A stretch of 64,000 bases of DNA from the IMG/VR virus record IMGVR_UViG_3300042874_000086, positions 25,673-89,672 of that record, one strand, 5' to 3'. The translations under genes were made by a program, and so were the position numbers. Every line of letters begins with the position of its first letter. Position 1 is the first letter of the stretch. The DNA is from a virus. This document shows positions 3,401 through 61,409 of this stretch, one piece after another. The notes beneath the pieces were generated by a model. That model saw nothing but the letters and a program-made list of their open reading frames with translations, ran no database searches and was not told the DNA's origin.

Positions 3401-6400
3401 CTAGCTTCTGCTACATTTTGGGCTAGCTCCTTAGGTACGGCGTTAAGGGCAGCCCAGGCTACTATGTTATTTATGTCCCGTACACCAATGGGTATAGTTT
3501 TAAGTGCTGCTGTTATCGCTGCTGGTAGTTTATATGCGTTTATGAGAGATACTAAAGAGGAGGCTGCTGGGTTAGAGGTTGAGGTAGAAAAAGCTAAAGA
3601 GCAAATAAGGGAGTATATAGAGTTAAAAAATAAAGCCCTTAAAGACCAGAATACCGTAGAGGCTGCAAGGTTAGAGTTAGTTATTACGGCGAGACAAGCT
3701 GGGGTAGATAAATTAACTACTGCCATTAATGTTAACTCTGCTTTACTGGAGGCTAAAAATTCTGCAAAAGAGGCTGAGGTATTTTTAACAGCATTTAGAG
3801 ACCAAACATCCTCGGGAGTCCTAACTAAAGTTAGTGGTGAAAAAGCACAAACTGCTCTGGTTACTACAATAGATAGTCATATTACTACTTTGACTAAAAC
3901 ATTAGGTAAAGTAGATAAAGATGATAAAGAAAGAGCAAAAGCTATTCGTAGTTTTATTGACGAATTAGAGCTAAGTAAAAAAAGGGTACAACAGGGTGAT
4001 TTTACTAGCGACGCTAATAAGAAGAATATGGACAAGTGGGTTACTGCACTAGATACTATAACAAAAACTTCTGCACAACTATCTGAGTTCTTAATTAAAA
4101 ACGTAAATCAGACTGGGACTAACCAATTTAAAAAGAGTGAACATTTTGACCCAAAACTTAGGGCACAGTACATGGATGTTTTGTTTCTCAAGAGTAAAAT
4201 AGATACAGGTCAAAATACACTACCAGTTGGAATTAGAGACAACCTAATTAAGATGTCTGGGTATTTAGCTAATATATCGGCTGGTACTGGAAAAAATTAC
4301 GACGTAACCAGTGCTTATGATTCTAGACCCGGTAACGCCAATAGCCAACATCTTAAAGGGGCGGCTGTAGATATCCAAGGGAAAGAAAAAGAGATTACCG
4401 AGGCCGCTGGGTTAGAGGCTATGAGGTATATTGCGTCCCACAGAGAGCTTTTTACTGGTATTGGCCAGGTTATTTTAGAAAAAGTACAATCAGGTAGGTA
4501 TGTACTTCACATGGGGTTGGATGAAAAAGGACAAGGTACATCTTTTGCTAGGGGGTATCAACCAAAAGGTGGTAAATTACAAAACTACGAAAATTATAAC
4601 CCACTTACAAATACTTATGCTACGAGTAAAAAAGGTGCGTCAGCTACTGCCCCATCTTTAAATAACTTACCATTAATACAAGACCCAAATACTGTTATAA
4701 AGTCATCCAGTGGGCTTGTCAGTATGATAAGTGATGAATTCTTACAAAGTATTGAAAAGTATGCGTCAATACTTAAAGAAAACTTTACTAATAACCAAAA
4801 TATTACTAAAGACTCTGGTGTATTATTAAATAAAATAACCAATACTATTGGTAAGATTGAGTCTAGCAGGGCGGTATCTTTACAAAAATTAATTGATTTT
4901 ACCCCTACTGGTGCTAAGGAATTTGCTGAAGATTTTCGTATTAAAATTAGTAAAACTAAAGACCCCCTAGAGGCTCAGGAGGTTATTGGTAAGATAACTA
5001 AAGAGATAAATGCAGCCACTGCTAGTATGACCGAGTCTGAGGCAAGTCCTTATAATGGTGTCATTGCAGCTATGAAGAAATTTGTTAAGTATTCAGAGGA
5101 TATTAAAAATCTTAAAAAAACTTTTACTGAAGTACAAGCTATCGGTAAATTAGATACTACCGAACAGACAAAAGGACTAAACAATAAACTAAATGACCAA
5201 CAACAAAAACATTTAGAAAATGTAAGTGCACTATCGTTAAATCTTTTGCAGTCTCAAGAAGAATATGATAGAGTATTAAATAACACCGTCTCTAATATGG
5301 CAGAGAGTGCAAAATTATCAGAACAAATTTTACGTGAGACTGAATCACTAAAAACATCTGAAACTAGGTTAGAAGGTCTTACAAGACTCCGTGCAGAGCA
5401 TTTAGATAAAATTGCGTACCACAATGCAAATAATGCAGGCGATAAAAAAGAGGAAGAGGCGTTAACAAAAAATCTTGCTAGGATTGATGGGGATATAGCG
5501 ACTACGTCAGGGGTTATTGATAAACACCGGGAAAATATTCTAAAGAATACTGTAAGTTCTGTTAATGCACAAACCACAGAACTCAACTTACTAAGACAAA
5601 TTAACAGGGAATACCAGGATTTCGCTAACGAAAATAACTATCAAGCAAAAAACCAAGAAAGGTTATTACGCGTAGCTAACTCCCAAAAAGCTGGTAGTTT
5701 AGACCCTTATGGTATGGAAATTAATAGGCAAGATATTCAGTACGGCAGGGATACAAAAGCACTAGATGAGAAGTATGGGATGGGATATGATGAATTTAAC
5801 CCTAACGTACAAACCACTCCTTGGTTAGCTAACCAAAAGGGTATTGAGGCTGGTAGACAAGGGGCTAATGCTGGAAAAGCCCTAATAGAAACTATCAATA
5901 AAGATTTTGACGCGGTAGCAAACACCATACAACAAAGAATGTCTACTATAGACGAGCGATATACAAATGAGTCTGCGTATAACCAATCTGGTTTAGATAT
6001 AAATGCTGGGCAACAAAATGCTGATGGAAGCACTATGTATAATCCAGAAGAGCAGATGGCAATAAAAGCCGCACAAGATGAGCTAATGTTACAACAACGT
6101 GCGTCCATAGACGCTAGAATAATAGAAATGGAGAGAGCCAAAGCTGACCTAATAGTTAATGAGAGGAAAAGGGTAGACACTATAGAGGCCGCCTCTTTTG
6201 GACTACGCTTAGGGCAAACTCAACAAATGTTTGATAGTATGCAAAATATCGCCCAAACATACTATACGCTTTCAGGTAATAAGTCAAAAGCAGCCTTTAA
6301 AACTATGCAAGCACTGTCTGTTGCCACTACTGTAATAAAAACATACGAAGCTGCACAAGCAGCTTATGCGAGTACCGTAGGTATCCCATATGTTGGTCCA

Positions 6401-6739
6401 TACCTAGCCCCTGTGGCGGCTGCAGGTGCTATTGCGGCTGGTATGCAACAAGTTGCCCAAATAAAGGCACAAACCTTTCACACAGGGGGGTACGTAGCTA
6501 ACGATAATAGAGCAGGTCTTAGAAGCGACGAAGTTCCTGCTGTTTTACAGACTGGGGAATACGTGCTATCTAGAAACGACATGAAAGCAATTCAAGGGTC
6601 TTCTAAAGGAGTGGGGGTAAGTGCTCCTACCCAACCTTCTGAGGTAGTGGTAGTTAATTCCATAGACCCTTCTATTGTTGAACAGTACCTTTCTTCTAGA
6701 GAGGGAAGACAGATAATTAATAATTCTATTAAACGCTAA
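422..6739 (+). CDS. Tail tape measure protein with internal M15-type peptidase domain
   Basis: At 2,105 residues this is by far the longest gene, as expected for the protein that sets siphovirus tail length and passes through the cell envelope at infection. The first ~600 residues are repetitive Lys/Ser/Thr/Leu-rich helix. Residues ~630-930 contain the conserved tape-measure core (ALTLGRAGIDKADVTEAT region), followed by hydrophobic segments near 965-1040. Residues ~1260-1380 carry a peptidase M15-like domain, with SQHLKGAAVD at ~1308-1317 and VLHMG at ~1361, matching the zinc ligands of D,D-/L,D-peptidases; it probably opens peptidoglycan during DNA entry. The C terminus has the usual tape-measure motif DEVPAVLQTGEYVLSRND. 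It starts at ATG after the chaperone gene and ends in TAA 12 bases before the next gene. Confidence 0.93.
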   Translation: MANTSINIDLKFTGQGLRGLESSLVSLTKDTQKLSKASETIFAGDLTSLNKTKKTIDGLTNNLVGLFTQSQEVSKALSIMGQGLKGKELNEATSGLSASLRKMVKSSNLEGLHSEYLRISRAMGDVSLTTKGLQQAFAGTTVGIKNNIENTISALKQLGTNTQTLSNFKTRLTEATTILNKTGDSTYLSRVNKDLDASLKNTLKLYDASQKLQSLQIQTKPVQTAVGNLGALQQKTASGTATGQDVTLALRESSKLYDEIRAKEKDLEASRRASNKLLSDNIALLKAQETSLKTTITNKSGVATPTDISAAKNKLTEVTAEITKLSNIKAPDVLDTRKINAFSKTVQATTADVTKLAGEAAKVKFDVNLSKALSDAKKSAGQLSLEMRDFQKSAATGVASSLQSLRAQASIVRNDIRKGNVRPEVAKEDLELLNKKFNLLKQLNDLQLKTNAATGVMSNSDIAKVTSDIATLSRSVSTATGPLGVFAERFKEIKIAVSGKITYDAGYDRITQSYEKQILALNNLINTKQKWASDKSLELARQKVRELEDALRGAEARKRAFDSAFSADPSTAVRSAASEVTRLRGELNSATTSARTVSQALTEISGVKWFTNIAQRALAYSGLFGGIYSVVNTIQNGLKYVIEYDQAIHTLSAVLDMSALSAARLEGNLAKLGTQYGGALKDINEAALTLGRAGIDKADVTEATEAVIKMARLTGDTFATSASAMITYKEVFGKVKDTNTGLTPSIEDLGNMLAYMANQSRMSTQDIGTFSNYALAAAKSSGMTADAVSAMAISFSNAGVNASTIGTQIRRFSSVLAETSSETVNFFDSIGVSQEMMMARMKMGTEESNKAMAEFVGKLKGLTDAEFSQITRGMDILALQSLTLLRNNADEFFRHLQKMQGGVEGEIDKANFITESYAITWEKLGNTLALSFNQTVGNLLPFGKAMVEFATGALNTFNDVVTTIIKNWDMFKTIFFSVIGVASVAAISRISIALASATFWASSLGTALRAAQATMLFMSRTPMGIVLSAAVIAAGSLYAFMRDTKEEAAGLEVEVEKAKEQIREYIELKNKALKDQNTVEAARLELVITARQAGVDKLTTAINVNSALLEAKNSAKEAEVFLTAFRDQTSSGVLTKVSGEKAQTALVTTIDSHITTLTKTLGKVDKDDKERAKAIRSFIDELELSKKRVQQGDFTSDANKKNMDKWVTALDTITKTSAQLSEFLIKNVNQTGTNQFKKSEHFDPKLRAQYMDVLFLKSKIDTGQNTLPVGIRDNLIKMSGYLANISAGTGKNYDVTSAYDSRPGNANSQHLKGAAVDIQGKEKEITEAAGLEAMRYIASHRELFTGIGQVILEKVQSGRYVLHMGLDEKGQGTSFARGYQPKGGKLQNYENYNPLTNTYATSKKGASATAPSLNNLPLIQDPNTVIKSSSGLVSMISDEFLQSIEKYASILKENFTNNQNITKDSGVLLNKITNTIGKIESSRAVSLQKLIDFTPTGAKEFAEDFRIKISKTKDPLEAQEVIGKITKEINAATASMTESEASPYNGVIAAMKKFVKYSEDIKNLKKTFTEVQAIGKLDTTEQTKGLNNKLNDQQQKHLENVSALSLNLLQSQEEYDRVLNNTVSNMAESAKLSEQILRETESLKTSETRLEGLTRLRAEHLDKIAYHNANNAGDKKEEEALTKNLARIDGDIATTSGVIDKHRENILKNTVSSVNAQTTELNLLRQINREYQDFANENNYQAKNQERLLRVANSQKAGSLDPYGMEINRQDIQYGRDTKALDEKYGMGYDEFNPNVQTTPWLANQKGIEAGRQGANAGKALIETINKDFDAVANTIQQRMSTIDERYTNESAYNQSGLDINAGQQNADGSTMYNPEEQMAIKAAQDELMLQQRASIDARIIEMERAKADLIVNERKRVDTIEAASFGLRLGQTQQMFDSMQNIAQTYYTLSGNKSKAAFKTMQALSVATTVIKTYEAAQAAYASTVGIPYVGPYLAPVAAAGAIAAGMQQVAQIKAQTFHTGGYVANDNRAGLRSDEVPAVLQTGEYVLSRNDMKAIQGSSKGVGVSAPTQPSEVVVVNSIDPSIVEQYLSSREGRQIINNSIKR

Positions 6740-11094: not shown

Positions 11095-12131
11095 AAAGAA
11101 TATACGTAGACCATTACGACGCTACTGGTTTTATTGCCCCCACCTCTAATGCACTATTTAACAATGCAGAGGCACAGTATAAGATACCGTCTAAATATAT
11201 TATGGGCGCATACTTAGAGTATTTAGGGGAAACTATATCTGACATTTATTTAACTCCAACATCTTCTTTTGTTACTTTTGAGGCTGACATATCTATCGTG
11301 GAGTCTGGGTATTATACACTTAAGGTAACAGCCACATCCGGGAGCTACCAGCTTTACGTAAACGAAGACTTAGTGTTGTCTTCATTTGAAGGTAATGGTG
11401 AGATTACAATACTTATGTATAATGGTATTGCCTCTATTAGATTTAAGTACTTAGGAACTACGGGTTACAATATTACATGGAAAGCCCCAACTAATTCAGT
11501 TTTTGTTAATATTCCGGATACTCAATTACCTGTGTATGGTCGTACAATATTTCCTTTTACTATCTATGACTCTGTAGATGTACAACTACGGAATGAGTAC
11601 AATATTATAGGGGAACTATACCAAAATAGGGTACTAAATAAATTAAAAAAACCTGGTAGGACATTTAAAGTTACCTTAAAACAAGATAATGTTTACGATA
11701 GGCTTACGGTAAAGTATTGGTTTGTATCTACCCGAGGTAAATATAAGTCGTTCTTATTTCCTTCTAATGCGTCAGATTTTATTTTAAAGTCATTACCAGA
11801 AGCTGGGGATTTGTATATAACTATATTAAAGAATTTTTCAACCATAGCTCACGAGTATACCCAAAGATTAATATACATACCCGAGTTACAGTTCATTACT
11901 CCAGTATACTCGGTAGAACCAATTCTAGAGGGGGGCATTGAGTACGAAAAACTAGTAATACCAGACGCAATACCTAGTGACGTAGGTTCATGTAATATAC
12001 AGTTAATGTTCCTTTGTAGATTAGACACAGATACCCTATCTTTTGAGTTGGAAGATATTAACTTTAGCTCTTGTGATTTTACTATAAAAGAATTATCAAA
12101 CGATAATCAATTATTAAGAATATTTACTTGA
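11091..12131 (+). CDS. Tail-tip protein with PA14-like insert (distal tail region)
   Basis: 346 residues. Residues ~35-135 (SGYYTLKVTATSGSYQLYVN, then ITILMYNGIASIRFKYLG) look like a PA14/GLEYA-type carbohydrate-binding domain. The C-terminal half (FKVTLKQ.., YWFVSTRGKYKSFLFPS, FLCRLDTDTLSFEL) matches the pattern of phage proteins encoded just before the BR0599-type hub component, where residues of the RGKYxSFLFP kind recur. It probably builds the distal tail and may bind surface glycan. It overlaps the preceding gene by four bases. Confidence 0.55.
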   Translation: MKRIYVDHYDATGFIAPTSNALFNNAEAQYKIPSKYIMGAYLEYLGETISDIYLTPTSSFVTFEADISIVESGYYTLKVTATSGSYQLYVNEDLVLSSFEGNGEITILMYNGIASIRFKYLGTTGYNITWKAPTNSVFVNIPDTQLPVYGRTIFPFTIYDSVDVQLRNEYNIIGELYQNRVLNKLKKPGRTFKVTLKQDNVYDRLTVKYWFVSTRGKYKSFLFPSNASDFILKSLPEAGDLYITILKNFSTIAHEYTQRLIYIPELQFITPVYSVEPILEGGIEYEKLVIPDAIPSDVGSCNIQLMFLCRLDTDTLSFELEDINFSSCDFTIKELSNDNQLLRIFT

Positions 12132-12140
12132 GGGAATAAT

Positions 12141-12875
12141 GTGGATTTATACAAAGTAAGCTTATTTAACAATACCTACTATTATTCCTCTGGGGTAGAT
12201 GTTACATTTTTAGGGACTCCTTACGTAGGTAAACCCATAAACCGAACCGAAATAACAGTAGAATTACAAGATTCGGATATAAGAATAACCGCCCCCTTAA
12301 ACTTAGAGCCTTTTTCAGTCTATATTACAGCTTCTCCCTCTTCAGATATGAGCCTAACCTTATATGATTATGATTCAGGGTTTGAAATGTTTTCGGGTAT
12401 TTTAATATCACTCACTTATAAAATTGACACTGGGGTTGTTGACTTAAAATTTCAGAAGAAGGAATCGTTTTTTGATAGTGAAGTTCCATATAGAACCTAT
12501 GGTACTTTATGTTCTTTTGATTTATACTCAGCGGAGTGTGGGGTCCAAAAAGCAGATAACCAAATAGTAACAGCCACCTTCACGCTTGCTGAGGATAGAC
12601 GCTCTGTTACAGTACCTGGCATATCTGGTATACTAGATAATACATACCGATACGGGGTTGTTGGTACCGATACCGGGGAAACTTCCTTCATAATCAGTCA
12701 AGTAGGAACTACGGTTGTATTTGATACACCTTTATTCATAATTCCATCTTCCATATATTTAATAAAAGGGTGTGATAAATCATTTAGTGGTTGTGGGAGT
12801 AATTTTAATAATTCTATTAGGTATGGGGGATTCCCTGTTATACCCGCAAAAAATCCAGTTACGGAGTCTATCTAA
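12141..12875 (+). CDS. BR0599/GTA-type baseplate hub protein
   Basis: 244 residues, starting at GTG after GAGGG; an overlapping ATG two bases upstream is out of frame. The C terminus has the hallmark of the phage BR0599 / gene-transfer-agent hub family: CDKSFSGCGSNFNNSIRYGGFPVIPAKNP, with paired Cys and the RYGGFP signature. The earlier SAECGV motif fits the same family. These proteins lie at the tail tip between the distal tail protein and the central hub. The stop overlaps the next start by one base. It contains an exact match to the early-region palindrome at 12482. Confidence 0.8.
   Translation: MDLYKVSLFNNTYYYSSGVDVTFLGTPYVGKPINRTEITVELQDSDIRITAPLNLEPFSVYITASPSSDMSLTLYDYDSGFEMFSGILISLTYKIDTGVVDLKFQKKESFFDSEVPYRTYGTLCSFDLYSAECGVQKADNQIVTATFTLAEDRRSVTVPGISGILDNTYRYGVVGTDTGETSFIISQVGTTVVFDTPLFIIPSSIYLIKGCDKSFSGCGSNFNNSIRYGGFPVIPAKNPVTESI
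12482..12497 (+). repeat. Early-region-type palindrome inside tail gene
   Basis: AGTTCCATATAGAACC is identical to the copy at 50340 and fits the AGTTCYAYRTRGAAC consensus, but here it is coding sequence (EVPYRTYG) of the BR0599-type gene. It may be chance or a decoy/operator site. Confidence 0.5.
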
Positions 12876-16087: not shown

Positions 16088-16723
16088 ATGAATACTTTTA
16101 TCAGAATACTTAATTATACAAAGTGTTTATGGTCGAAATATAATCCGTTTGACTTAAATGATGAATTTATAGGTATTAATGAACATCTTATAAACGTTTA
16201 TAATAAAGTTGTAGGTATAGAAAATGCAATTATTATAGAGTTGGAAACTTATAAACAAGAACGATTATATTATCATAACTTAGTAGAAGCTATTGGTGAT
16301 GTTTCTCCCGACATGTTATGGGCTAAGAATTTAGATGGTAAATATATTTATGCAAATAATGCAATAAAAAATGGACTACTGCTAGACCATGACCCAATTG
16401 GTAAAGATGATGTCACCTTAGCACTGGCCGCTAAGGAAAGATTTGGTGAAGAAAACCACACTTTCGGGGAACTTTGTGCCGACTCCGACACAATTACTTT
16501 GACAGCATTAAAAGAATGCTCTTTTTGGGAGTACGGGAAAGTTAAGGGCAGTGACTTACACTTACTGGTAAAAAAGAAACCACTCTATGTTGATGGTGAA
16601 TTGTATGGAACTGTAGGTAGTGGGAGGGATATAACAGATTTAGTTATATTATCTAACACAGTTAATAATAATTGCTCTACTTATACATCTTTTTTTGATA
16701 TCTTAGAAAAATATAAATTTTAG
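16088..16723 (+). CDS. PAS-domain protein of unknown role
   Basis: 211 residues. Residues ~72-190 form a PAS fold: VSPDMLWAKNLDGKYIYANNAIKNGLL, then a conserved IGKDD turn, WEYGKVKGSDLHLLVKKKPLYVDGELYGTVGSGRDITD, the last part being the typical PAS exit motif. There is no kinase, GGDEF or DNA-binding domain. The N-terminal ~70 residues are helical, the rest of the C terminus short. It sits between the tail fibre and the holin candidate, so it may sense a small molecule or potential to influence lysis or infection, but that is inference. The stop is TAG. Confidence 0.75.
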   Translation: MNTFIRILNYTKCLWSKYNPFDLNDEFIGINEHLINVYNKVVGIENAIIIELETYKQERLYYHNLVEAIGDVSPDMLWAKNLDGKYIYANNAIKNGLLLDHDPIGKDDVTLALAAKERFGEENHTFGELCADSDTITLTALKECSFWEYGKVKGSDLHLLVKKKPLYVDGELYGTVGSGRDITDLVILSNTVNNNCSTYTSFFDILEKYKF

Positions 16724-17016: not shown

Positions 17017-17415
17017 ATGGATATAGTATATACCCAATGGGAATTTGTTAAAAATATTAGTAAACTTTTAACATTTATTGAGGGGTCTAATTTTATGGTA
17101 ACCTTAGGGGAAGCTTATAGGCCCTATGAATTACATTTGTTATATCTTCACGGGTTATCCGTAGAGGAGTATGGAGACTCACTTAATTTCGTACCCACTA
17201 AGCAAAAAGCCCGTACAAAAACTTCAAAGCACCTTAAACGTCTAGCTATTGACTTTAACTTCTTTATTAAAAACGATAATGGTGAGTACGATTTGACTTA
17301 TGATACTTACTTGTTGACCTTAATAGGTGAGTACTGGGAAACTCTAAATGAAAATAATGTGTGGGGCGGTTTTTGGAAACACCCAGACCCTACCCACTTT
17401 CAAATGTCATACTAA
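17017..17415 (+). CDS. Endolysin, M15 peptidase (L-Ala-D-Glu or D,D-peptidase type)
   Basis: 132 residues, the length of T5-like M15 endolysins. The zinc-site motifs are visible: SKHLKRLAIDFNFF (~residues 69-82, H and D ligands) and WGGFWKHPDPTHFQM at the C terminus, with the last His. GEAYRPYE is the typical N-terminal motif. No signal peptide is present, so release needs a holin, consistent with the preceding gene. Confidence 0.85.
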   Translation: MDIVYTQWEFVKNISKLLTFIEGSNFMVTLGEAYRPYELHLLYLHGLSVEEYGDSLNFVPTKQKARTKTSKHLKRLAIDFNFFIKNDNGEYDLTYDTYLLTLIGEYWETLNENNVWGGFWKHPDPTHFQMSY

Positions 17416-17653: not shown

Positions 17654-18072
17654 TGGCTATTGTTGCTGCAGTTTGTGACTCTTACTTAAAAGAATTGTAT
17701 GAAGGTACCCACGTAGCTACCGACAATTACTACATAGCTTTATACTTGGACACTGCTAACTTGGGGAGTACTACCACAAGTTACTCAATTACTGATGAGA
17801 CCTCTGGAACGGGGTATACTGCCGGGGGGCAACTACTGGTTGGGTTTAATACACTTATAGACTCGGGCGTATCTATTTTAGATTTTAGCACTGACGCGGT
17901 GTGGTCAGTATCTACAATAACCGCTGCCGGGGCACTGATATATAACTCAACAAAATCCAATAAAGCCGTTGCAGTGCTAGATTTTGCTGGGAATGTATCC
18001 TCGGTTGATGGCGATTTTATTGTTGAATTTCCGCTTCCTACCTCTACAGCTGGATTAATAAGGATTTCATAA
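17653..18072 (+). CDS. Conserved phage virion-associated protein
   Basis: 139 residues. The pattern of an N-terminal helix, then YYIALYLDTANLGSTTTSYS, SGTGYTAGGQLL, and GALIYNSTKSNKAVAVLDFAG is one I recognise from many tailed phages, where it is annotated hypothetical or structural. It is beta-sandwich-like and likely a small virion protein. Both ends overlap neighbours (TAATG), so it is translated as part of the lysis/structural operon. Confidence 0.6.
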   Translation: MAIVAAVCDSYLKELYEGTHVATDNYYIALYLDTANLGSTTTSYSITDETSGTGYTAGGQLLVGFNTLIDSGVSILDFSTDAVWSVSTITAAGALIYNSTKSNKAVAVLDFAGNVSSVDGDFIVEFPLPTSTAGLIRIS

Positions 18073-18497
18073 TGCCAGCCTTTGGGTCATCTTCACAACA
18101 ACGTTTACAAAAGGTACACCCCGACTTAGTTAAGGTTATGAACGAAGCTATCAAACATATTGATTTTTCAATTATGTTTGGTTACCGCTCCCCAGAAGAA
18201 CAATTAGAGTTATTTAAAAAAGGTCGTTCATTCCTAAAAGGAAAATGGGTAATTACTAGCAAGAAATCTGTCGTTACATATATGGACGGTACTACTAAAA
18301 AATCAAACCATAACTTCAGTCCCGCTAGAGCAGTTGATATTATGCCTTACCCGTTCCTTCAAAGTTACTGGAAAGACTCTAAAATTTGGTATGAGTACTC
18401 CGAGGCTATTAAAAAAGCTGCCGATACTATTGGTGTAAAAATAGTTTGGGGCGGGGATTGGAAAATGTTTGACGCCCCACATTTTGAGTTAGTCTAA
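18072..18497 (+). CDS. Second M15 peptidase (VanY/CwlK-like endolysin)
   Basis: 141 residues. MFGYRSPEEQLELFKKGRSF is the typical M15_4 N-terminal motif; SNHNFSPARAVDIMPYP holds the H and D zinc ligands and WGGDWKMFDAPHFEL the terminal His. It therefore looks catalytically intact, like the 132-residue peptidase 650 bases upstream, to which it is only distantly similar. Two endolysins in one cassette may differ in cross-link specificity, or one may be replacing the other. Confidence 0.85.
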   Translation: MPAFGSSSQQRLQKVHPDLVKVMNEAIKHIDFSIMFGYRSPEEQLELFKKGRSFLKGKWVITSKKSVVTYMDGTTKKSNHNFSPARAVDIMPYPFLQSYWKDSKIWYEYSEAIKKAADTIGVKIVWGGDWKMFDAPHFELV

Positions 18498-20541: not shown

Positions 20542-21033
20542 ATGCAATACCTAACTAAAGGTGAGTTACTAGTCGCGTTAGGTGATAGCGCAGATAGTTT
20601 CACAGCGTTCATGATGAACCCAGAGGCGTACGGCGTTACTGAACCCGCCCTAACAGCGCTGGGAGTGACTAAACAAAAATTAGATTGGACAGCAAACGTT
20701 GATATGGGCTTACCTGAAGTCAGTAGCCTCATAACTATGCTACAAAGCCTTGGGATCATTTCGCAAGCAGCAGCTGATACCTTAAGAGATACGCCAGACA
20801 GAACTGAATATGACCAATACACTATATACGTAAAAGCACAAGATGATATTACAGTAAATAACATATACGGAGCAGTGTTCGATGGCAACTTATGGAAAGT
20901 TGTAATGGACTACTACAATAACACTAAAGACATACACATCATAGAGGACGCGTACTTCAGCAGCGAGCCCACTACAGAAGAGATAACACTCCTAGTAAAT
21001 GATAAATTAACAGAGTTGAAGAGGGAGGTGTGA
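20542..21033 (+). CDS. Virion-associated protein, unknown
   Basis: 163 residues, ATG after AAAGGATAAT. Helical N-terminal half (ELLVALGDSADSFTAFMM..), mixed C terminus ending in a charged helix KLTELKREV. Not recognised. Its last codons contain GGGAGGTG, a near-perfect SD for the next gene, and it ends GTG TGA C; the next frame begins immediately after. Confidence 0.5.
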   Translation: MQYLTKGELLVALGDSADSFTAFMMNPEAYGVTEPALTALGVTKQKLDWTANVDMGLPEVSSLITMLQSLGIISQAAADTLRDTPDRTEYDQYTIYVKAQDDITVNNIYGAVFDGNLWKVVMDYYNNTKDIHIIEDAYFSSEPTTEEITLLVNDKLTELKREV

Positions 21034-21034
21034 C

Positions 21035-23659
21035 ATCGCAACTTTTACAATCACCGATACAAAAAATCTCGATGAACTGACATCAAAGGCTGGCGGGGAC
21101 ACATACAATGTCAATGGCGGTAACTTAACAATTGACGGGCACTCAAGATTCGACCTTAATGCAAGTAATGCTTCTGCATCAGCTGCTACATCCCTTGGAA
21201 CTGTAACCATCTCTGCTACTCTTGGGGGGAATTGCACATTTGATGGTACTAAAGTCAGGTTAATAGCGTATACAGATGGAAGCGGAACACTGCCAGCACT
21301 TGGCTCTACAGTGACCAAAGGTTCAGCTAGTGGCAAATTGATGTGTGTTTATTCGTCAATGACTGATATGCCAGTTGTATCAGGAACAATTCCAGCTACT
21401 GGTTGGATACAAATTAAACAATGGAATGAAGTAGAGTACACTTCAGGCGCATTGACAATCACGGACGTATCTGCCAATTCATCAGGGGCTAGTAAAGTTG
21501 GCTTCTTGGAGATTATGGGTGACGACGCAAAGAGTATTGTTGCTAATAGACTTGGTACATTTAATGTAACAGGTGCTTGGTTCAGTTTAGGTTCGACTTC
21601 GGGCTCATCTAATCAAACAATCCAAATTCCAAATCACGGGACTAAACGATTTATTAGTGGGGTGTTTATAGAAAAAACATCAGGCCAAAAGGATTATGAG
21701 TTCTATCCAAATGCTGGGACTGCTACTACAATTGGTACTGAAGCTGAACGCGGTAAAGTTGTTTGGATAGATGACACTGGATTGATTAGGATTGGACATA
21801 ATGGCACTGACCCTATGGGGTATACTCCGGTTGCTAATCTTGAAGTAGTTATCGGAAATATCTTCTTTTGTACCAATACCACATCCGCTAGAAATGAGGT
21901 GTGCATCCCCCATGCCACACCTGGTACAAGATACGATTACACTACTACCGGTGGTGGTGTTCTAAACATTGACAAGTGTGAGTCATCATGGTACCTCAGT
22001 ATAGTACAAGCTTACAGCTGTAACGTTAGTAATAGTGGGTTTGTAGACTCAGTCTATGTTCAAGAGGTGGCTACTCCTATGACGTGGAGTAATGTTGGTG
22101 TTGGTAATAAACCAAATACAGCCTTGGTGACATCGGGCTTGTTTATGTACTACAACTATGTCGGGGGTGTATTTAACGATTGTGTTTTCACTCGTGTATC
22201 ACTGGCAACCTCTGGTTCGTACACAGCTGTAATTCAAGACACTATAGGATTTACATTTAACAGGTGTGCTTTTAGGGCTAATACCCGTCAAGGGCACTCA
22301 TCAGTGTATTCTATATACGGGCTTAGGATTAAAGATACTACTTTTAACGACTGTACGATTATTCAAGGGTATAGTATGCTCAGCACTTGTGAGGATATTG
22401 TCTACAACAATACGGCATATATAAACAATGTGTCGGGGACTACTCCTACTACTTATCCAACTCATGTGTGGTACACCTCAGCTAATAGTGTGAACTGTAC
22501 GTTTAACGGGCTAAAGTTACCTGTGACTGATTGTCATCCATATACTTCGTTATTAGCCAGTACATATGGAGCTAGTAATATCAAGTTGCGCAACATCGGG
22601 ACGAGAACAGTACCCTTAAACTTAGGAACAACAAATAATTGTGCTTTCATTTATGTCATTAGCTCTAATACCTCAAATGTAAAGGTACAGCGTGTTTATG
22701 CGTCCAACACTAGAACTGGAATTATGACAGGGAACAACTCTTGTCATGAGATTACAGAAGAGAATGTGTTTGGTGACTATGCAGATGCAACAGATGTTAT
22801 GGCTTGTATCAATATGAAGCGTAAAGGCATGGGTGGCACCGGTGTATTGAACAGTCAGATATCGATTTACGGTACTCATTGGATGGACTCATTTATAAAT
22901 ACAACTGAAGGACGTATTGCCATCCTAATGAATGAGGCTTCAACAATTACTGCAGCCCAAGTGACTTTAGGTACCGGCTCATCATTCACCAGCTCGGGTG
23001 GTTTGTATATGCCAAATGTAGACCACACGGTTACGTTTGAAATGCCAGAGTATACTCTAGGACATACAGGGTTTGTTAATACCACATTAATAATGGCTGG
23101 TGGTACTAGCACAAAATACAACTATAACTACGCTATTGACAAAAATGACAATGCAGGTTGGAGTGCAATGACGACGGATAACTTCACCCCTACTACACTA
23201 GGAACTGCATTGAGTAATATCACAGGGATTGATGCTAGTAAAGGGTTTAAGTTACGGCTTAAAATTACTACAATTACTGGCAACACTAATGCTATCACAA
23301 GTGTATATGTTAAAACAACAAGTTCAGCAACAGCTCAAGATTACCAATATCCACTTGATACTGTCCCTTTGTCGTTTGCTGTTAAGCATATAGATACAGG
23401 AAGTCCGCTGGCTGGTGCTAGACTATACCTAGTAGCAGGAGCTGGTGGGCCATTAGCCCAGGGTACTCTAATTCTAAATACACTGACTGATGTCAATGGG
23501 AATGTAACTGGTGCGGTAGAGCTGTCAGGAAATCAGCCAGTAGTGGGCAGAGTTAGGTTCGGAACCACCCCCAACTTCTACAAAACAGTTCCAATTAGTG
23601 AGATTATAAATAGTACAAGTGGGTTGTCATTGAATATATCAATGATCCCCGATGCATAA
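21035..23659 (+). CDS. Large beta-helix-like structural protein, apparent ATC start
   Basis: The frame is open from the stop at 21017 to 23659, but no ATG, GTG or TTG occurs before 21311. The upstream 90 codons are clearly coding (ATFTITDTKNLDELTSKAGGDTYNVNGGNLTIDG..). The best start is ATC at 21035, giving MATFTITDTKN and 874 residues: it lies six bases after GGGAGG, a very strong SD. The alternative is +1 frameshifting from the previous gene at GTG TGA C. The body has repeated short strands with Asn/Cys ladders, suggesting a right-handed beta-helix, with an Ig-like C-terminal domain near 690-870. It is probably a tail or capsid-surface protein. Confidence 0.65.
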   Translation: MATFTITDTKNLDELTSKAGGDTYNVNGGNLTIDGHSRFDLNASNASASAATSLGTVTISATLGGNCTFDGTKVRLIAYTDGSGTLPALGSTVTKGSASGKLMCVYSSMTDMPVVSGTIPATGWIQIKQWNEVEYTSGALTITDVSANSSGASKVGFLEIMGDDAKSIVANRLGTFNVTGAWFSLGSTSGSSNQTIQIPNHGTKRFISGVFIEKTSGQKDYEFYPNAGTATTIGTEAERGKVVWIDDTGLIRIGHNGTDPMGYTPVANLEVVIGNIFFCTNTTSARNEVCIPHATPGTRYDYTTTGGGVLNIDKCESSWYLSIVQAYSCNVSNSGFVDSVYVQEVATPMTWSNVGVGNKPNTALVTSGLFMYYNYVGGVFNDCVFTRVSLATSGSYTAVIQDTIGFTFNRCAFRANTRQGHSSVYSIYGLRIKDTTFNDCTIIQGYSMLSTCEDIVYNNTAYINNVSGTTPTTYPTHVWYTSANSVNCTFNGLKLPVTDCHPYTSLLASTYGASNIKLRNIGTRTVPLNLGTTNNCAFIYVISSNTSNVKVQRVYASNTRTGIMTGNNSCHEITEENVFGDYADATDVMACINMKRKGMGGTGVLNSQISIYGTHWMDSFINTTEGRIAILMNEASTITAAQVTLGTGSSFTSSGGLYMPNVDHTVTFEMPEYTLGHTGFVNTTLIMAGGTSTKYNYNYAIDKNDNAGWSAMTTDNFTPTTLGTALSNITGIDASKGFKLRLKITTITGNTNAITSVYVKTTSSATAQDYQYPLDTVPLSFAVKHIDTGSPLAGARLYLVAGAGGPLAQGTLILNTLTDVNGNVTGAVELSGNQPVVGRVRFGTTPNFYKTVPISEIINSTSGLSLNISMIPDA

Positions 23660-39072: not shown

Positions 39073-39656
39073 TTAAAGCCCCTTAATAGTTTTTAACACT
39101 TCTTCAATATCACTAATTGAAGCACTATTATTTAGTGTGTGTACTTCTTTCTCATTCAAACCAATGTCTAACTCAGCTTCAAGTTTTATTAACTGGTCTG
39201 GTCGGTAGTCCTCACACAAAATAGGAATCAAAGTAGTATTAACCCAAGCTACTGTTTCTGCGGTATCTTCAATGTAAAACTTAATAGAGTCGTGAACAGT
39301 ATTAGTTATTAATACTTCATTAATCTTATTATGCTTTTCTATCTCACTTTGGAACTTATGTAGTCCTCTTAGTGTTAAGAAGTTACCCGATTGTATCTTA
39401 AAGTTACTAGCTACACGCTCCTCTTTAGAACGTACATACTCATCCTTAGCGTTAATAGAGGCTAATTTAAGGCGTAACCCAGAGAACCTAGAGGTAACAT
39501 ACCCTACACCCAAAGCCTCTTGTACTGCAAGTTTATTATATTCCCTCGTAGGGGCATATAAATCCCAGTAGTTATTAAAAATCTCTTGCCCTTCTTGTAG
39601 AGGTATTCCTAGCTGACTAGCAACTTTCTTCGCCGAACTTCCGTAGTTCAATCCGA
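39073..39656 (-). CDS. DNA polymerase, exon 3 (C-terminal)
   Basis: Starts at 39656 with TC, completing the codon broken by intron 2, and continues GLNYGSSAKK. It carries the rest of the O-helix (Tyr equivalent to E. coli Y766) and motif C TNTVHDSIKFY with the catalytic HD. 193 residues follow the split codon. The tail GLNEKEVHTL.. closes the palm. No start codon is needed: it is translated from spliced mRNA. Confidence 0.88.
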
Positions 39657-39807
39657 CCTGGTGTTCAGGTAGGCTCGTTAGTTCCTACCCCGCAAAATTA
39701 CTTGCGGCTACATATTTCTATATAGAGCAGACTATATCTTCACCCCTTTCGGGGGCTATACGTTTCGGGGTACTTACCCCTACTTCCTTTCGGAATAGTC
39801 GTTGAGG

Positions 39808-40518
39808 TTAAGACTTAACCCAGAAATACCCATAAGCAGATTTTTGTCTACCACTCAGTACATTAGATATGGGACCAGCTGATTTTACTTTTAAGTATTG
39901 TACCGCCTCGGTAATATTATTAAAAATTTTAATAATATTACCATTTGTCTTATCTATCATATTTAACGTGATATCTTGTCTCTTGCTCATACCTGCGTTT
40001 TTGGCTCTTACTAATTTTTGAGAAATTAAAGAATTCTCGTAATCCTTAATAATACCTAAACGCTCTGCCGCTTCTCTAAGATGGTAACTAAGTTGTGTTA
40101 ACCCCTGATTAGTTGAATTACTAATTGAAGTTAAAGTTTCTCCAAGTAAAAATCTGTTTACTAGAATATCTTCATACTCACTTAACTGATATTTTCTTCT
40201 ATAGGGTTGTAGCCCACTGCTATATGCGTGAGCCATGTTTTCACTAAAGGTAGCCCACTCCAAATTACTAATAAAGTTATTTGTTTTGTCCCCGTCTATA
40301 TGATTAACAGTTTTCTTCCCCTCAGGGTTTGGTATAAAAGCTTCTGCCACTATTCTATGTATATACAGATTCTTGTTACTCCCATGTTCAGATATAGATA
40401 CACAAGGGTACCCAATCTTACTAACCCAAATACTCTTAGATTTGCCTGTTTCTGTGTTAATAACTTCCCCATCAACATTTATAGTGTGATGGGTACATCC
40501 ATTAATTAATCTTACCAT
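39808..40518 (-). CDS. Intron-encoded HNH homing endonuclease
   Basis: 236 residues from the ATG at 40518 behind AAGGAG; the frame extends upstream to 40569, but that part lies before the SD and promoter-like motif. Residues ~45-85 form the HNH core: YIHRIVAEAFIPNPEGKKTVNHIDGDKTNNFISNLEWAT. The N terminus resembles NUMOD4 and the C terminus (KRQDITLNMIDKTNGNIIKIFNNITEAVQYLK..SAGPISNVL) a NUMOD1-type DNA-binding module. It would cut intronless polymerase genes to spread the intron. Confidence 0.88.
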   Translation of the reverse strand: MVRLINGCTHHTINVDGEVINTETGKSKSIWVSKIGYPCVSISEHGSNKNLYIHRIVAEAFIPNPEGKKTVNHIDGDKTNNFISNLEWATFSENMAHAYSSGLQPYRRKYQLSEYEDILVNRFLLGETLTSISNSTNQGLTQLSYHLREAAERLGIIKDYENSLISQKLVRAKNAGMSKRQDITLNMIDKTNGNIIKIFNNITEAVQYLKVKSAGPISNVLSGRQKSAYGYFWVKS

Positions 40519-40539
40519 ATTAAAACTCCTTACTTTTGT

Positions 40540-40548
40540 TATAATCGT
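40540..40548 (-). promoter_or_regulatory. Late-promoter-like motif before HNH gene
   Basis: ACGATTATA on the minus strand, 21 bases before the HNH ATG. Intron endonucleases of T-even phages are known to be driven from late promoters inside the intron. Confidence 0.4.
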
Positions 40549-40676
40549 AACTAGTTTTAACTTAGGCAAAAGTTAAAGTCTTAACCTGCTGATTGCCTAC
40601 AACATCACTTGTTTAGGTGTTCCAGCATATGTATAGTTTTCTTCTACGTATTACTACGCAGTGACGCCTAAATTTA

Positions 40677-40815
40677 ACGTAATTGATTTACCTTTTTGTC
40701 TAAGGTCTGGAGCTTCTTTCTTAATTCTGTTAACTGAGTTTGCATTAGTAACATCTAGGAGTAACCCACGTTCTTCTAATTCACCTTTAAAATACGCACA
40801 GGCATTAAGGCTATG
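40677..40815 (-). CDS. DNA polymerase, exon 2
   Basis: 139 bases. Starts with CAT, giving HSLNACAYFKGELEERG after exon 1 ends in DGIDG, so motif A reads DYAALEDR..DGIDGHSLNA as in T5/T7-type enzymes. Ends KGKSIT plus the first base of the Phe codon; the Lys corresponds to E. coli K758. Forty-six codons plus one base. Confidence 0.87.
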
Positions 40816-40922
40816 CAATTTGTTATGATGTTCGTTAAACATCTCCCCTATCCCTAAGGGTATCGGACTATATCTTCACCTGGTCTAGGTGGTTGGCGTT
40901 TCGACTACACTTGTAGCCTACT

Positions 40923-41744
40923 CTACTCACTTCCTAGTGTATTAAATCCACTAGTGTTTTCGATAGTCTCTACACTCTCTAAAAGTGTTGGTAATATATC
41001 ATTAGATAGTACCTCAGTGTTACCACCCCTTGCTAGGCTAGTGTACTTGGGTACGATTAACATAAAATATTGTTTTAGTAACAAACTCTCCACGTAGTAG
41101 GCTTCTTGCTCTGTGTTATAAGATTTACTAAATAGTATAATTGGTTTTTCTACCTCACCGTTAAACCTTTGCTTAATTTTGGTAGTAACGCCCAACTTAT
41201 ATATTCCTAAACCCACAAAGAAAATATAATATAGTGTTGCTGGTCTATTAATATTAAACTTTCTTAATTTAATACTGCGAAGGTTTTGAGCACATGTAGG
41301 GCAATTCTGTTTTTGATGTAAATGACTTTTAGGTTCCATAAAAAAGGAACCATGCTCTTTACACACAATCTCAACCTTACTTGTCATTTTAATAAAAATG
41401 ACCTTAGAGTAATCATACCTATCTCCATGTACTCTCTTAAACTCTTCTATAATAGTAATACTACGTTTTTCTTTGGCTACTTGTGTGGAAGCATCCCTAC
41501 CACATCTAACACATCTAGTTATTCTATTTGTTTTAACTGCAGATTCCCTAGTAGTCACCGAGTTACCACAATCGCATTTATATAAAGATAACCATACTTT
41601 TTCGCCGTTTTTATTATTACGATATTCTACATTTTTTTCTATTAATACTAACATACTACTTTCAGATAGCTCGGGATTGGGTGTTCTACCGTTCCCCGAA
41701 TTAGCCAACTTTATTTTCTTCGTATCCCTACGAAGGACAGCCAT
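40923..41744 (-). CDS. Intron-encoded GIY-YIG homing endonuclease
   Basis: 273 residues. An N-terminal four-Cys module (CDCGNSVTTRES.., RCVRCGRD, residues ~50-85) is followed by a second zinc-ribbon-like part (CKEHGSFF..CPTCAQN, ~128-160) and the nuclease core ATLYYIFFVGLGIYKLGVTTKIKQRF near 172-200. It ends with GGNTEVLSNDILP. The layout matches T5orf172/MUG113-type endonucleases. The start is uncertain: the first ATG has no clear SD. Confidence 0.8.
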   Translation of the reverse strand: MAVLRRDTKKIKLANSGNGRTPNPELSESSMLVLIEKNVEYRNNKNGEKVWLSLYKCDCGNSVTTRESAVKTNRITRCVRCGRDASTQVAKEKRSITIIEEFKRVHGDRYDYSKVIFIKMTSKVEIVCKEHGSFFMEPKSHLHQKQNCPTCAQNLRSIKLRKFNINRPATLYYIFFVGLGIYKLGVTTKIKQRFNGEVEKPIILFSKSYNTEQEAYYVESLLLKQYFMLIVPKYTSLARGGNTEVLSNDILPTLLESVETIENTSGFNTLGSE

Positions 41745-41752
41745 ATCTACTT

Positions 41753-41761
41753 AATAATCGT
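41753..41761 (-). promoter_or_regulatory. Late-promoter-like motif before GIY-YIG gene
   Basis: ACGATTATT on the minus strand, only eight bases before the first ATG of the ORF, so either translation starts further in or this copy is not a promoter. Confidence 0.3.
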
Positions 41762-41801
41762 AGACTATACCTTTTAATGTATTCACCAAAGGTATAAGTT
41801 A

Positions 41802-43655
41802 ACCGTCAATTCCATCAGTAAATACAGCTAGTTTCATTGGGTCATTTGCCTCCACTGCAATTAGTCTATCTTCCAAAGCCGCGTAGTCCACTGCTCCAAT
41901 TACAAAACCATCATCGGGTATTAGTAATTTTTTAATAAGCTCTCCGTACTTACTATTAGAGGGCATATTTTGGAAATTCAAACCACCTGATGAGCTTAAT
42001 CGTCCTGATACAGTACCAGTTTGATTAAAGTTAGCAAACACTTTCCAGTGACCTGGCTTAACTTCAACACTACTCTCTTTAAACACTTTCAAGTAAGTTG
42101 AGTTTACTTTATCAGCGTCCATAATATCCCGCAGTAAATTAAGAAGCTCCTCTTGTTCTTTGGTAATATCAAGTTCTAACCACTCAGCAATAACGTCTTT
42201 ATCCGTTGAAGGTTTCTTAGAGGTCTTTGAAATCTTAATAACAGGTAAGTTCATCAACTCAAAGAATAAGAATTGTTTTTGGTTTGGGCTTCCTGGATTA
42301 AATGGCTCAAGGAACTCATCTTTAACATCTGCCCATTTCTTTTTATTTTTTAACCCATCATTATACTTTTTGAATCTACGCTTCGCTAAGAAATCTTCTG
42401 CTTGTCTAATGATAGGGTGGTCACGGAATGTTACTAGCTTGTCTGCAACCAGTTCATTAAGCTCCTCAATAGCACCAGACACTTTATCTTTCTTAATACG
42501 TAGACCATTCATCTTCATTTTTAGAAGTGTAACACCAATATCACGTATCTCTTCATAAACAGGTATAAGAGATTTATTCTCATCTTTACTTACCTCTTCT
42601 CGGTACTGCTTCCATATACGACAAGTAGCAATAACATCATAGTTATTATAGGTGGCTACTTTATATAAATCAGCACCGAATAGGTTCTTTTGGTCTATAT
42701 CAGAATCATATTCACCCATAAAGGAAAATACTAGTTCTTTAAGACCCAACGAAGGGCGTTCTGTACTATTGAATAGAACGTAAACAAGCAACATAGAATC
42801 TTCAAGGTTAAATAAATTAATCAAGGGCTCTTGTCTAATACCGAAGTCACTACCTCTCATAATCTCATGGGTAATAAAAGCTTGGTCAAACCCAATCCAG
42901 TTGTGTCCTACAAGTTTCCCCTTATACTGACTAAAGAACGCTTTCAAGGTCTTTGCTAGTTTTCGATAAGTATCTTCTGAGTGATACTTAGGGTGTAAAG
43001 CTACACAGAAGGCTTCTTTCTCATTACGAGCAAATGATATTGTAAGCATCTTATCAGCATACCAACGTAAACCAGTGGTCTCGATGTCCACATATAACTC
43101 TGGTTCATCAATCCATGCCTTAAGGTGGTTGTAGACCTCAGTAGGGTCTTTTAAGATTAGGTTCATATCTAAATCAAGGGTCTCAACTGGGTCAGTATAG
43201 TCTCCTAAAAGTAGATTTTTAATAACTGATAAGCCTCTATTGAGTTCCTTAAAACGTTCAGGGAACATATTTAGAATTACTGGATTAAGGATTGGTACAA
43301 TTTGGTAATTGACCATATCTTTATGACCCTCAACTACCCTTCCAATATTCAACATCATTTTCTTATCACCAGTTAGATTTTGGTAATAGTCAGCGTTACC
43401 TACAGCAATAATATTAATGCTATACATTTCACAATATTCTTTTAAGGCTACTAACTCAGTATCGAAATCAGCCTTTTTTAGTTTACCTTTTTCAGGAACG
43501 AATCCCCCAGCAAAGGCAAAGTCCTTTATATCCATTCCCAACGGGACTACAATTTTTTGTAACAAGAAATTAGCAGACCCTTTATTACAAACATTTTGTG
43601 GTAGTAACACCATTACTTTAGGTTTGGCTTGAGGGGTTAATGTAAAAACTTCCAT
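41802..43655 (-). CDS. DNA polymerase, family A (T5-like), exon 1
   Basis: 618 residues. Residues ~185-360 are the 3'-5' exonuclease: LYVDIETTGL (Exo I), VGHNWIGFDQAFI (Exo II), and YDVIATCRIW (Exo III). The thumb follows, then TGTVSGRLSSSGGLNFQNMPS and motif A VIGAVDYAALEDRLIA with the catalytic Asp. Joining exons 1-3 gives 858 residues, against about 855 in T5 polymerase. The ATG is directly after the previous gene's stop. Confidence 0.93.
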
Positions 43656-50392: not shown

Positions 50393-50421
50393 ATTATACA
50401 CAATATTTTAAAGAAAGTCAA
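50393..50421 (-). promoter_or_regulatory. Sigma70 promoter for tRNA/ncRNA region
   Basis: Minus strand TTGACT (50416-50421), 17-base spacer, TATAAT (50393-50398). It overlaps the 3' end of the 82-residue gene. A TGACACC/GGTGTCA hairpin (50371-50391 area) lies in the initial transcript. Confidence 0.85.
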
Positions 50422-50666
50422 GACTCTTTTAAATCTTTTAATACTTTTTTTAAGATAGTATTTGGTACATTCATAAAGATTAAACCCACATTAGTTTCCC
50501 TAAATATAGGTATTCCCCTGTAAGTAACATAACCACATTTCATATAACACCCGGCACTTCTAGTTGATAAAAAAGAGTTAACAACTGGGTATTTTTTCTT
50601 AAAAACATGGGATATACTTACCCGTAATAATAAGTATTCCATGTAATAGAGTATATACCTAATCAT
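50418..50666 (-). CDS. Small basic membrane-associated protein
   Basis: 82 residues. ATG overlaps the stop of the transglycosylase frame (ATGA), so it is likely translated only when ribosomes finish that frame. N terminus MIRYILYYMEYLLLRVSIS is apolar; basic residues follow (KKKYPVVNS). Function unknown. Confidence 0.5.
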   Translation of the reverse strand: MIRYILYYMEYLLLRVSISHVFKKKYPVVNSFLSTRSAGCYMKCGYVTYRGIPIFRETNVGLIFMNVPNTILKKVLKDLKES

Positions 50667-51222
50667 AGTACACTCCGTGCAAACTTTTTACCTTCGGAAC
50701 AATAACCTTTATACCTATGTACAGCCTCAAACATTTCACCCTCAGATATTTTTAAATAGTGGTTTAATATATAAGCCATAGAGTAAATATTACCCTTGTC
50801 AGTGTGGGGGTTAAAGGGAAGAGCCTTAGAATCCCAAGCTCTAGTATTAATCCCACATAACCCAACTACGTAGGGGAGTGCGTGTTTTCTATGAATGAAA
50901 GAAGACTCGGAATTTGTAAGTTTTCCGAGTAATTCTACTTTCCCACATATTCACACTCCAATAAGCTGCTAGCCTTTATTAATTCTACAGCCTGTTCTTT
51001 TGTAGCACCAGCTTTTATTAAATCATACTCTTGTAGTTGGTAAGCTCTGTAACCCTCTCTATAAAACTCTAATTCACTTTTAATTTTAGATTGTTTATCG
51101 TTATAGGCTAAAATAGTCTCATTAATAATGACAACATTAAATACCAAATATAAACAAAATAAAGCCTCCGCCAAAATAATAATTAATAGAAACTTTGTCC
51201 AATGCTGTTCTAATTTATTCAT
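50663..51222 (-). CDS. Membrane-anchored lytic transglycosylase, made by -1 frameshift
   Basis: The zero frame (51222-50935) encodes 95 residues with an N-terminal membrane anchor (FLLIIILAEALFCLYLVFNVVII) and stops at TAG. The -1 frame then runs to TGA at 50663 with no usable start codon, and encodes 91 residues of an SLT-type lysozyme fold: LTNSESSFIHRK (catalytic Glu in ESS), VGLCGINTRAWD, EAVHRYKGYCSEGKKFARSVL. The switch point is G GGA AAG TAG (slippery 50944-50938), the lambda G-T heptamer, followed by a 7-base spacer and an 8-bp perfect stem (50923-50930 with 50905-50912). Fusion: 186 residues. It may cut the murein during entry or modify the envelope. Confidence 0.8.
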
Positions 51223-60896: not shown

Positions 60897-61409
60897 TTAT
60901 AAGTAGTCCTTTCCTATAATACGTCTTAATTCAGTTTCTTGTTCTGACCATGCAGATGACCATGCAGATGACCATGCCGCTGACCGTGCCGCTGAATCTG
61001 CAGCTGAATCTGCCGCTGACCATGCAGATGACCATGCCGCTGACCGTGCCGCTGACCGTGCCGCTGAATCTGCAGCTGACCGTGCCGCTGACCGTGCAGC
61101 TAATCTAATATCATCATTTCCTGTTTCAAGCCAATCGATAATTAAGTCATAATTTTCTTCGGAGCAATATGGTTTAATCTTATCAATATTCTGCATTGCA
61201 CAAAATCTGGCAAACGCACCTATCTCTTCATTGTGCCCTTCTATAGCCCTAAAACACCAAATTGCGTCTTCGATTCCATTGCTATTTAAAATGGTTAAAA
61301 GTGATAGTTCTTCATCGTCTGCCTTAGTTTTTCCAAGTGTTTTTAAAAGCTTTTCCCATCCGTCTCTGCAGGGAGAATGCTCTCTTATTTTATTTAGTGT
61401 TGTTTTCAT
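60897..61409 (-). CDS. Protein with Ala-Arg/Asp/Trp-Ser repeat tract
   Basis: 170 residues. After a globular ~105-residue start (AFARFCAMQNIDKIKPYCSEENYDLIIDWLETGNDDIRLAARSAA), about 50 residues consist of 4-residue units of the form xSAA (AARS, AADS, AAWS, SAWS), encoded by a 12-bp tandem repeat at 60946-61110. Such tracts occur in phage and host proteins with variable copy number. Function unknown. Confidence 0.7.
   Translation of the reverse strand: MKTTLNKIREHSPCRDGWEKLLKTLGKTKADDEELSLLTILNSNGIEDAIWCFRAIEGHNEEIGAFARFCAMQNIDKIKPYCSEENYDLIIDWLETGNDDIRLAARSAARSAADSAARSAARSAAWSSAWSAADSAADSAARSAAWSSAWSSAWSEQETELRRIIGKDYL
60946..61110 (-). repeat. 12-bp tandem repeat inside gene
   Basis: Roughly 13 imperfect units of GCTGACCRTGCN with Trp/Ser/Asp/Arg variation at one codon. 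In frame and likely to change copy number. Confidence 0.8.

Follow-up and report, generated by a model that had tools for sequence, protein, structure and literature searches.

In phage lambda, GGGAAAG is the slippery heptamer of the G-T frameshift, and the dnaX gene of E. coli combines the heptamer A AAA AAG with a downstream hairpin, its short product being a truncated form of the replication protein. The two lambda products, gpG and gpGT, are made in a low ratio, a Shine-Dalgarno (SD) element plays a role in the dnaX frameshift, SD stimulators of -1 shifts act at 9-14 nt, and GGGAAAG and CCCAAAG are paired as heptamers that are highly shift-prone in E. coli (PMC5009743). Among the cell-wall enzymes of phages, the endolysin of Firehammervirus F379 (F379_025, QOI69311.1) is a protein of 224 aa with a strongly hydrophobic transmembrane domain (TMD), a coiled coil and a C-terminal SLT domain, which expressed alone lyses E. 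coli within 30 min in a Sec-dependent manner and is restrained by a separate overlapping gene, F379_024 (PMC7692668). For the Fletchervirus endolysin (CPX gp111, F352_101), a signal peptide has been reported and a holin is required (PMC7692668).

Frames and signals at the junction

The DNA analyzed here, referred to as the window, comprises 64 kb out of an 89,672-base IMG/VR virus record; the terminase of this phage shows 26% identity to a T5-like phage terminase. A first-pass annotation had described a 95-residue anchor protein ending in TAG, a -1 frame of 91 residues lacking a start codon, a GGGAAAG heptamer where the two meet and, seven bases downstream, a perfect 8-bp stem with a 10-base loop. 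All four elements were confirmed at the following positions, the -1 frame being open up to its TGA, whereas the upstream GGAG and the overlap with the next gene are additional to those observations.

51222..50935, minus strand: zero-frame ORF, 95-aa anchor, stop TAG, ribosome-binding site AAGGAG upstream
50959..50956, minus strand: Shine-Dalgarno-like GGAG, 11 nt upstream of the heptamer
50944..50938, minus strand: in-phase slippery heptamer G GGA AAG, adjoining the TAG (zero-frame codons GTG GGA AAG TAG)
50938..50663, minus strand: -1 frame, 91 residues from GTA (50938), SLT-like domain, stop TGA at 50665..50663
50930..50905, minus strand: hairpin with perfect 8-bp stem, ACTCGGAA (50930..50923) and TTCCGAGT (50912..50905), 10-nt loop, 7-nt spacer
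50418..50666, minus strand: next ORF, 82 aa, its ATG overlapping the stop of the -1 frame (ATGA)

The anchor is a single-pass protein with a hydrophobic segment at approximately residues 11-33 and a polar helical stretch thereafter. Its best 19-residue Kyte-Doolittle mean of 2.59 is strongly hydrophobic, compared with 1.63 in the related phage G001; the criterion for SAR endolysins, against which both values were read, is a weakly hydrophobic, releasable N-terminal segment. The upstream limit of the -1 frame is a TGA that precedes the zero-frame stop by a few codons (TGA ATA TGT GGG AAA GTA), and the frame holds no ATG, GTG or TTG ahead of the codon for the catalytic Glu (50908..50906). The hairpin has a calculated energy of -11.2 kcal/mol (z -4.15), and none of 200 shuffles was as good, although in comparison with real downstream segments of both genomes its energy is only within the best 8.5%. 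A -1 frame that truly ends a gene would be expected to overlap the next ORF in this way (ATGA), and the same overlap is found in G001 where the -1 frame ends.

In its layout of N-terminal TM segment, helical linker and C-terminal SLT domain, the predicted fusion resembles the F379 endolysin. The latter, however, is encoded by one uninterrupted 224-aa frame, whereas the window phage and G001 carry a -1 junction; in these two phages, TMD, linker and SLT domain would be united in one polypeptide only as a frameshift product. With the Fletchervirus endolysin it shares an N-terminal hydrophobic segment, the SLT domain and the variant motifs ES.F and G..(G/A)IN, the CPX protein being 188 aa from an uninterrupted frame versus 186 aa for the window fusion. 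The GGGAAAG site and the two predicted products recall lambda gpG/gpGT, which is, in contrast to the membrane/cell-wall protein of the window, a tail-assembly chaperone encoded upstream of the tape measure. The location expected for a chaperone of this type, just upstream of the tape-measure gene, does not apply: the tape-measure-sized ORF (2105 aa) is located on the plus strand at 422..6739, and the frameshift gene lies on the minus strand at 51 kb. The order of SD-like element, slippery heptamer and downstream hairpin is that of E. coli dnaX.

The frameshift gene has rIIA/rIIB-like and other presumably early genes as neighbors on the minus strand, and judging by this neighborhood it would be early itself. 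Two M15 peptidases (17017..17415 and 18072..18497) are encoded on the plus strand in the late region among structural genes and could serve as the lysis enzymes of the window phage; given these two late peptidases, the anchored SLT-like product is not its sole lysin. The M15 genes are adjoined in this structural-gene region by a gene for a PAS-fold protein (PF08448, E 1.1e-5; 16088..16723, plus strand). Elsewhere in the window, a DNA polymerase gene (39073..43655, minus strand) looks by eye to be split into 41799..43655 and a C-terminal part at 39073..39651, with homing-endonuclease-like ORFs, likewise assigned by eye, between the parts at 39808..40569 and 40923..41744. The C-terminal half of the protein encoded at 60897..61409 (minus strand) contains a long tandem AARSAADSAARSAAWS-type repeat. 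At L009 9905..12673 (minus strand), a ribonucleotide reductase large subunit looks by eye as if interrupted by an intein-like insertion (CVTGDTKV ... TGNCSE). The tail-region ORF 21311..23659 (plus strand) is preceded by 92 more open codons without ATG, GTG or TTG (window 21019..23659); an ATC soon after GGAGG near 21030 (reading IATFTITDTKNLDEL) is a plausible start, the alternative being a +1 shift out of gene 20542..21033.

A relative with the same arrangement

Direct homologue searches of annotated phages with the gene yielded no match, and neither did a search of IMG/VR with either half of it. A helicase scan led to two related IMG/VR records, G001 (54% helicase identity) and G002 (52%). 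The gene is absent from G002, and profile searches extended to further related records (several of them partial), to two more distant records and to GTDB genomes revealed no third member. In G001, it begins with the following frame.

L044 11474..11776: zero-frame TM protein of G001, 100 aa, ending ..ATA AAC CCA AAG CAT TAG

The SLT domain of G001 is again located in the -1 frame, which is open to 12048 and contains no ATG, GTG or TTG ahead of its Glu. The heptamer is C CCA AAG (11764..11770), which shares bases with A AAC CCA; GGAGG lies 13 nt ahead of it, and the hairpin that follows (z -2.85 and -3.79 for two lengths) is less regularly paired than that of the window. With distances of 11 and 13 nt, the SD-like elements of both phages lie inside the 9-14 nt range. 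Comparison of the window fused protein with G001 gave a 40% identical stretch beginning at the junction (E 1.9e-10), the slip sites being at most two residues apart in the protein alignment; for the anchors, no homology was detectable by BLASTP. The first-pass annotation had proposed to look for heptamer and stem in relatives and had regarded relatives with a single uninterrupted frame and no slippery site as contrary evidence. In G001, the -1 offset recurs at the homologous position, with CCCAAAG as heptamer and with an SD-like element and hairpin of its own, and single frames were encountered only in distantly related phages, in the endolysins of the Campylobacter Fletchervirus and Firehammervirus phages.

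Residues 1-122 of the G001 fusion align to residues 1-131 of the F379 endolysin at 28% (BLASTP), across the junction at residue 99, which is also spanned by a match of residues 6-122 to PHROG 25648 (224 positions, E 1.2e-5). This PHROG is probably the family of the F379 endolysin, being of the same length. The window fusion gave no significant match to the F379 endolysin. No counterpart of F379_024 emerged: in the ORF lists of the window and of G001, the start of the anchor gene is not overlapped by an ORF from upstream. The gene immediately preceding the frameshift gene in G001 (L044 11160..11423, plus strand) encodes a TM protein with a helical, spanin-like tail, which did not match F379_024 (E 0.42).

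Based on these data, we consider a programmed -1 frameshift with an anchored SLT-like product in the window phage to be probable (roughly 0.85). The frames, the signals, their conservation in one relative and the homology across the junction in G001 can be read directly from the sequence. The strongest single argument for programming is that exactly these two heptamers are found at one homologous residue in two phages.

The first-pass annotation had named the downstream domain SLT/lysozyme-like. Pfam PF01464 gave no match at its curated cut-off for either -1 domain or for the phage records, which marks the domain as divergent. An SLT profile was built from four proteins that pass Pfam SLT (PF01464) and are independent of both phages; out of 7,735 ORFs in nine records, it picked the two -1 ORFs (1.6e-9 for G001, 1.1e-6 for the window). 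The window -1 domain contains the motifs ESSF, GLCGIN, GNIYSMAYIL and HRYKGY, of which ES, GNI and RYKG are present in both -1 domains. GLMQ is replaced by GLCG or GKCA, and because of this altered motif, activity of the predicted enzyme is not assured. Adding the zero-frame tail raised the profile score of G001 from 34.2 to 45.3 bits, the tail (..SEAYGINPK) constituting the start of the SLT domain, whereas for the window the score did not rise (21.8 to 20.7 bits). AlphaFold models of the -1 domains were poor (pLDDT 43), and the one model searched gave no useful PDB fold match. Taken as a divergent SLT-type transglycosylase domain, the assignment is thus supported by profile homology to the four PF01464 proteins, while the cut-off of the Pfam family itself is not reached.

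Proposed role of the two products

For the steps that lead from these signals to a function, namely the occurrence of the shift, its efficiency, the activity of the enzyme and a restraint by the anchor, we infer the following course. Most ribosomes would end at the TAG and release the 95-aa single-pass membrane protein without a catalytic domain. With the help of GGAG upstream and the hairpin downstream, a minority would slip by -1 on G GGA AAG and synthesize a 186-aa membrane-anchored SLT-type peptidoglycan transglycosylase. The counterpart of this fusion would be the Firehammervirus endolysin with TMD, coiled coil and SLT domain, for which Sec provides the route to the periplasm and which needs no partner to lyse E. 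coli. The shift would keep such a holin-independent enzyme low and at a fixed ratio to the excess anchor, and the latter, sharing the membrane and linker region, may pair with the enzyme and restrain it.

Export by Sec combined with holin-independent lysis demands that the enzyme stay scarce, which a slippery site beside a stop codon would achieve. Considering the self-sufficient lysis of the F379 type, the shift most likely serves to ration the enzyme, and for the frameshift rationing a lysis enzyme we regard the odds as about even. A further step, in which the frameshift would act as a lysis timer with the abundant anchor holding the rare enzyme inactive via the TM/linker region and the ratio of the two setting the time at which the wall is cut, is plausible but less likely than not. 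A single gene would then supply both inhibitor and endolysin, as opposed to the Firehammervirus phages with their separate inhibitor gene.

A tentative competing explanation, less favored but to be taken seriously, accepts the frameshift as real and places the product outside lysis, as a factor acting early on the envelope, by local opening or remodeling of the peptidoglycan or by preventing superinfection, while lysis would be carried out by the M15 peptidases. It thereby bears on the use of the protein and not on the frameshift itself. The position of the gene among rIIA/rIIB-like, presumably early minus-strand genes and away from the plus-strand M15 genes points in this direction; however, lytic genes are unclustered in Campylobacter phages too (PMC7692668), and the nearest characterized homologue is an endolysin.

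Alternative readings of the junction

Among the explanations that dispense with a frameshift, initiation of a separate, soluble SLT enzyme at a non-canonical codon (ATA 50950) or by reinitiation after the TAG is improbable. The ATA sits 5 nt past GGAG, and the tail-region ORF with the ATC after GGAGG near 21030 seems to be a second gene of the window phage that begins without ATG, GTG or TTG. In G001, however, the -1 codons past GGAGG are GTA TGG TAT AAA CCC, leaving no near-cognate start at a usable spacing, and the product would miss the export signal as well as the first part of the domain as seen in the G001 fusion (YGINP). Moreover, the heptamers and hairpins would be left unexplained.

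The probability of a coincidental occurrence of these signals was estimated with the predicted genes of the window phage and G001 as background codons. In-phase X XXY YYZ heptamers were found at 0.68% of 46,148 codons, the chance of any heptamer over the four permitted positions at the window junction being ~2.7% and that of an in-phase heptamer over the permitted overlap at the G001 junction ~9.7%. The only in-phase GGGAAAG within these 46,148 codons of the two genomes is the one at the window junction, and a perfect 8-bp stem 4-10 nt downstream is present at 0.41% of codon positions. The combination of an in-phase XXXAAAG with an SD core at 9-14 nt was counted three times in 44,636 codons of the two genomes, and these junctions account for two of the three. 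Likewise, other-frame extensions of at least 80 codons without an early start were detected in 4 out of 322 genes of three related phages, half of them represented by the junction and its homologue. Another improbable explanation is a single-frame endolysin broken by an error in sequencing or assembly, or by a deletion that inactivated it recently, with heptamer and hairpin as coincidences. It would agree with the single frames of the distant relatives F379 and CPX and with the picture that one base missing from GGG or AAA would give, but is opposed by the equal offset at the homologous place with a different in-phase heptamer in G001 (another contig), by the chance values for heptamers and stem given above, and by a -1 domain that is intact and conserved in both phages. 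In combination, the conservation in G001, the SD-like elements and the known single-frame counterpart strongly support programming of the shift and make a sequencing error or a pseudogene unlikely.

Readthrough of the TAG was rejected because the zero frame soon reaches another stop and does not read the domain, and transcriptional slippage because the site has no long homopolymer. A second putative -1 site, A AAA AAT, precedes the stop of a tail gene (12141..12875, plus strand) and of its G001 homologue (L046) by seven codons and is followed by a -1 extension of 74-79 codons. It was discarded, since in each of the two phages an overlapping ATG (TAATG) belongs to the downstream frame; the extension is probably an ordinary gene for a small hydrophobic protein that starts there.

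To our knowledge, double-stranded DNA phages have few known -1 frameshift genes beyond those of the tail-assembly chaperones. No cell-wall enzyme made by a -1 frameshift was found in a frameshifting review, in frameshift-prediction papers or in the open-licence literature. The first-pass annotation likewise knew of no described phage muramidase made in this way; the anchored SLT architecture, in contrast, was already known as an endolysin. If the proposed reading is true, translational recoding would join holins, SAR release, antiholins and inhibitors among the known controls of phage lysins, and annotation pipelines would miss such enzymes, as their catalytic half has no start codon.
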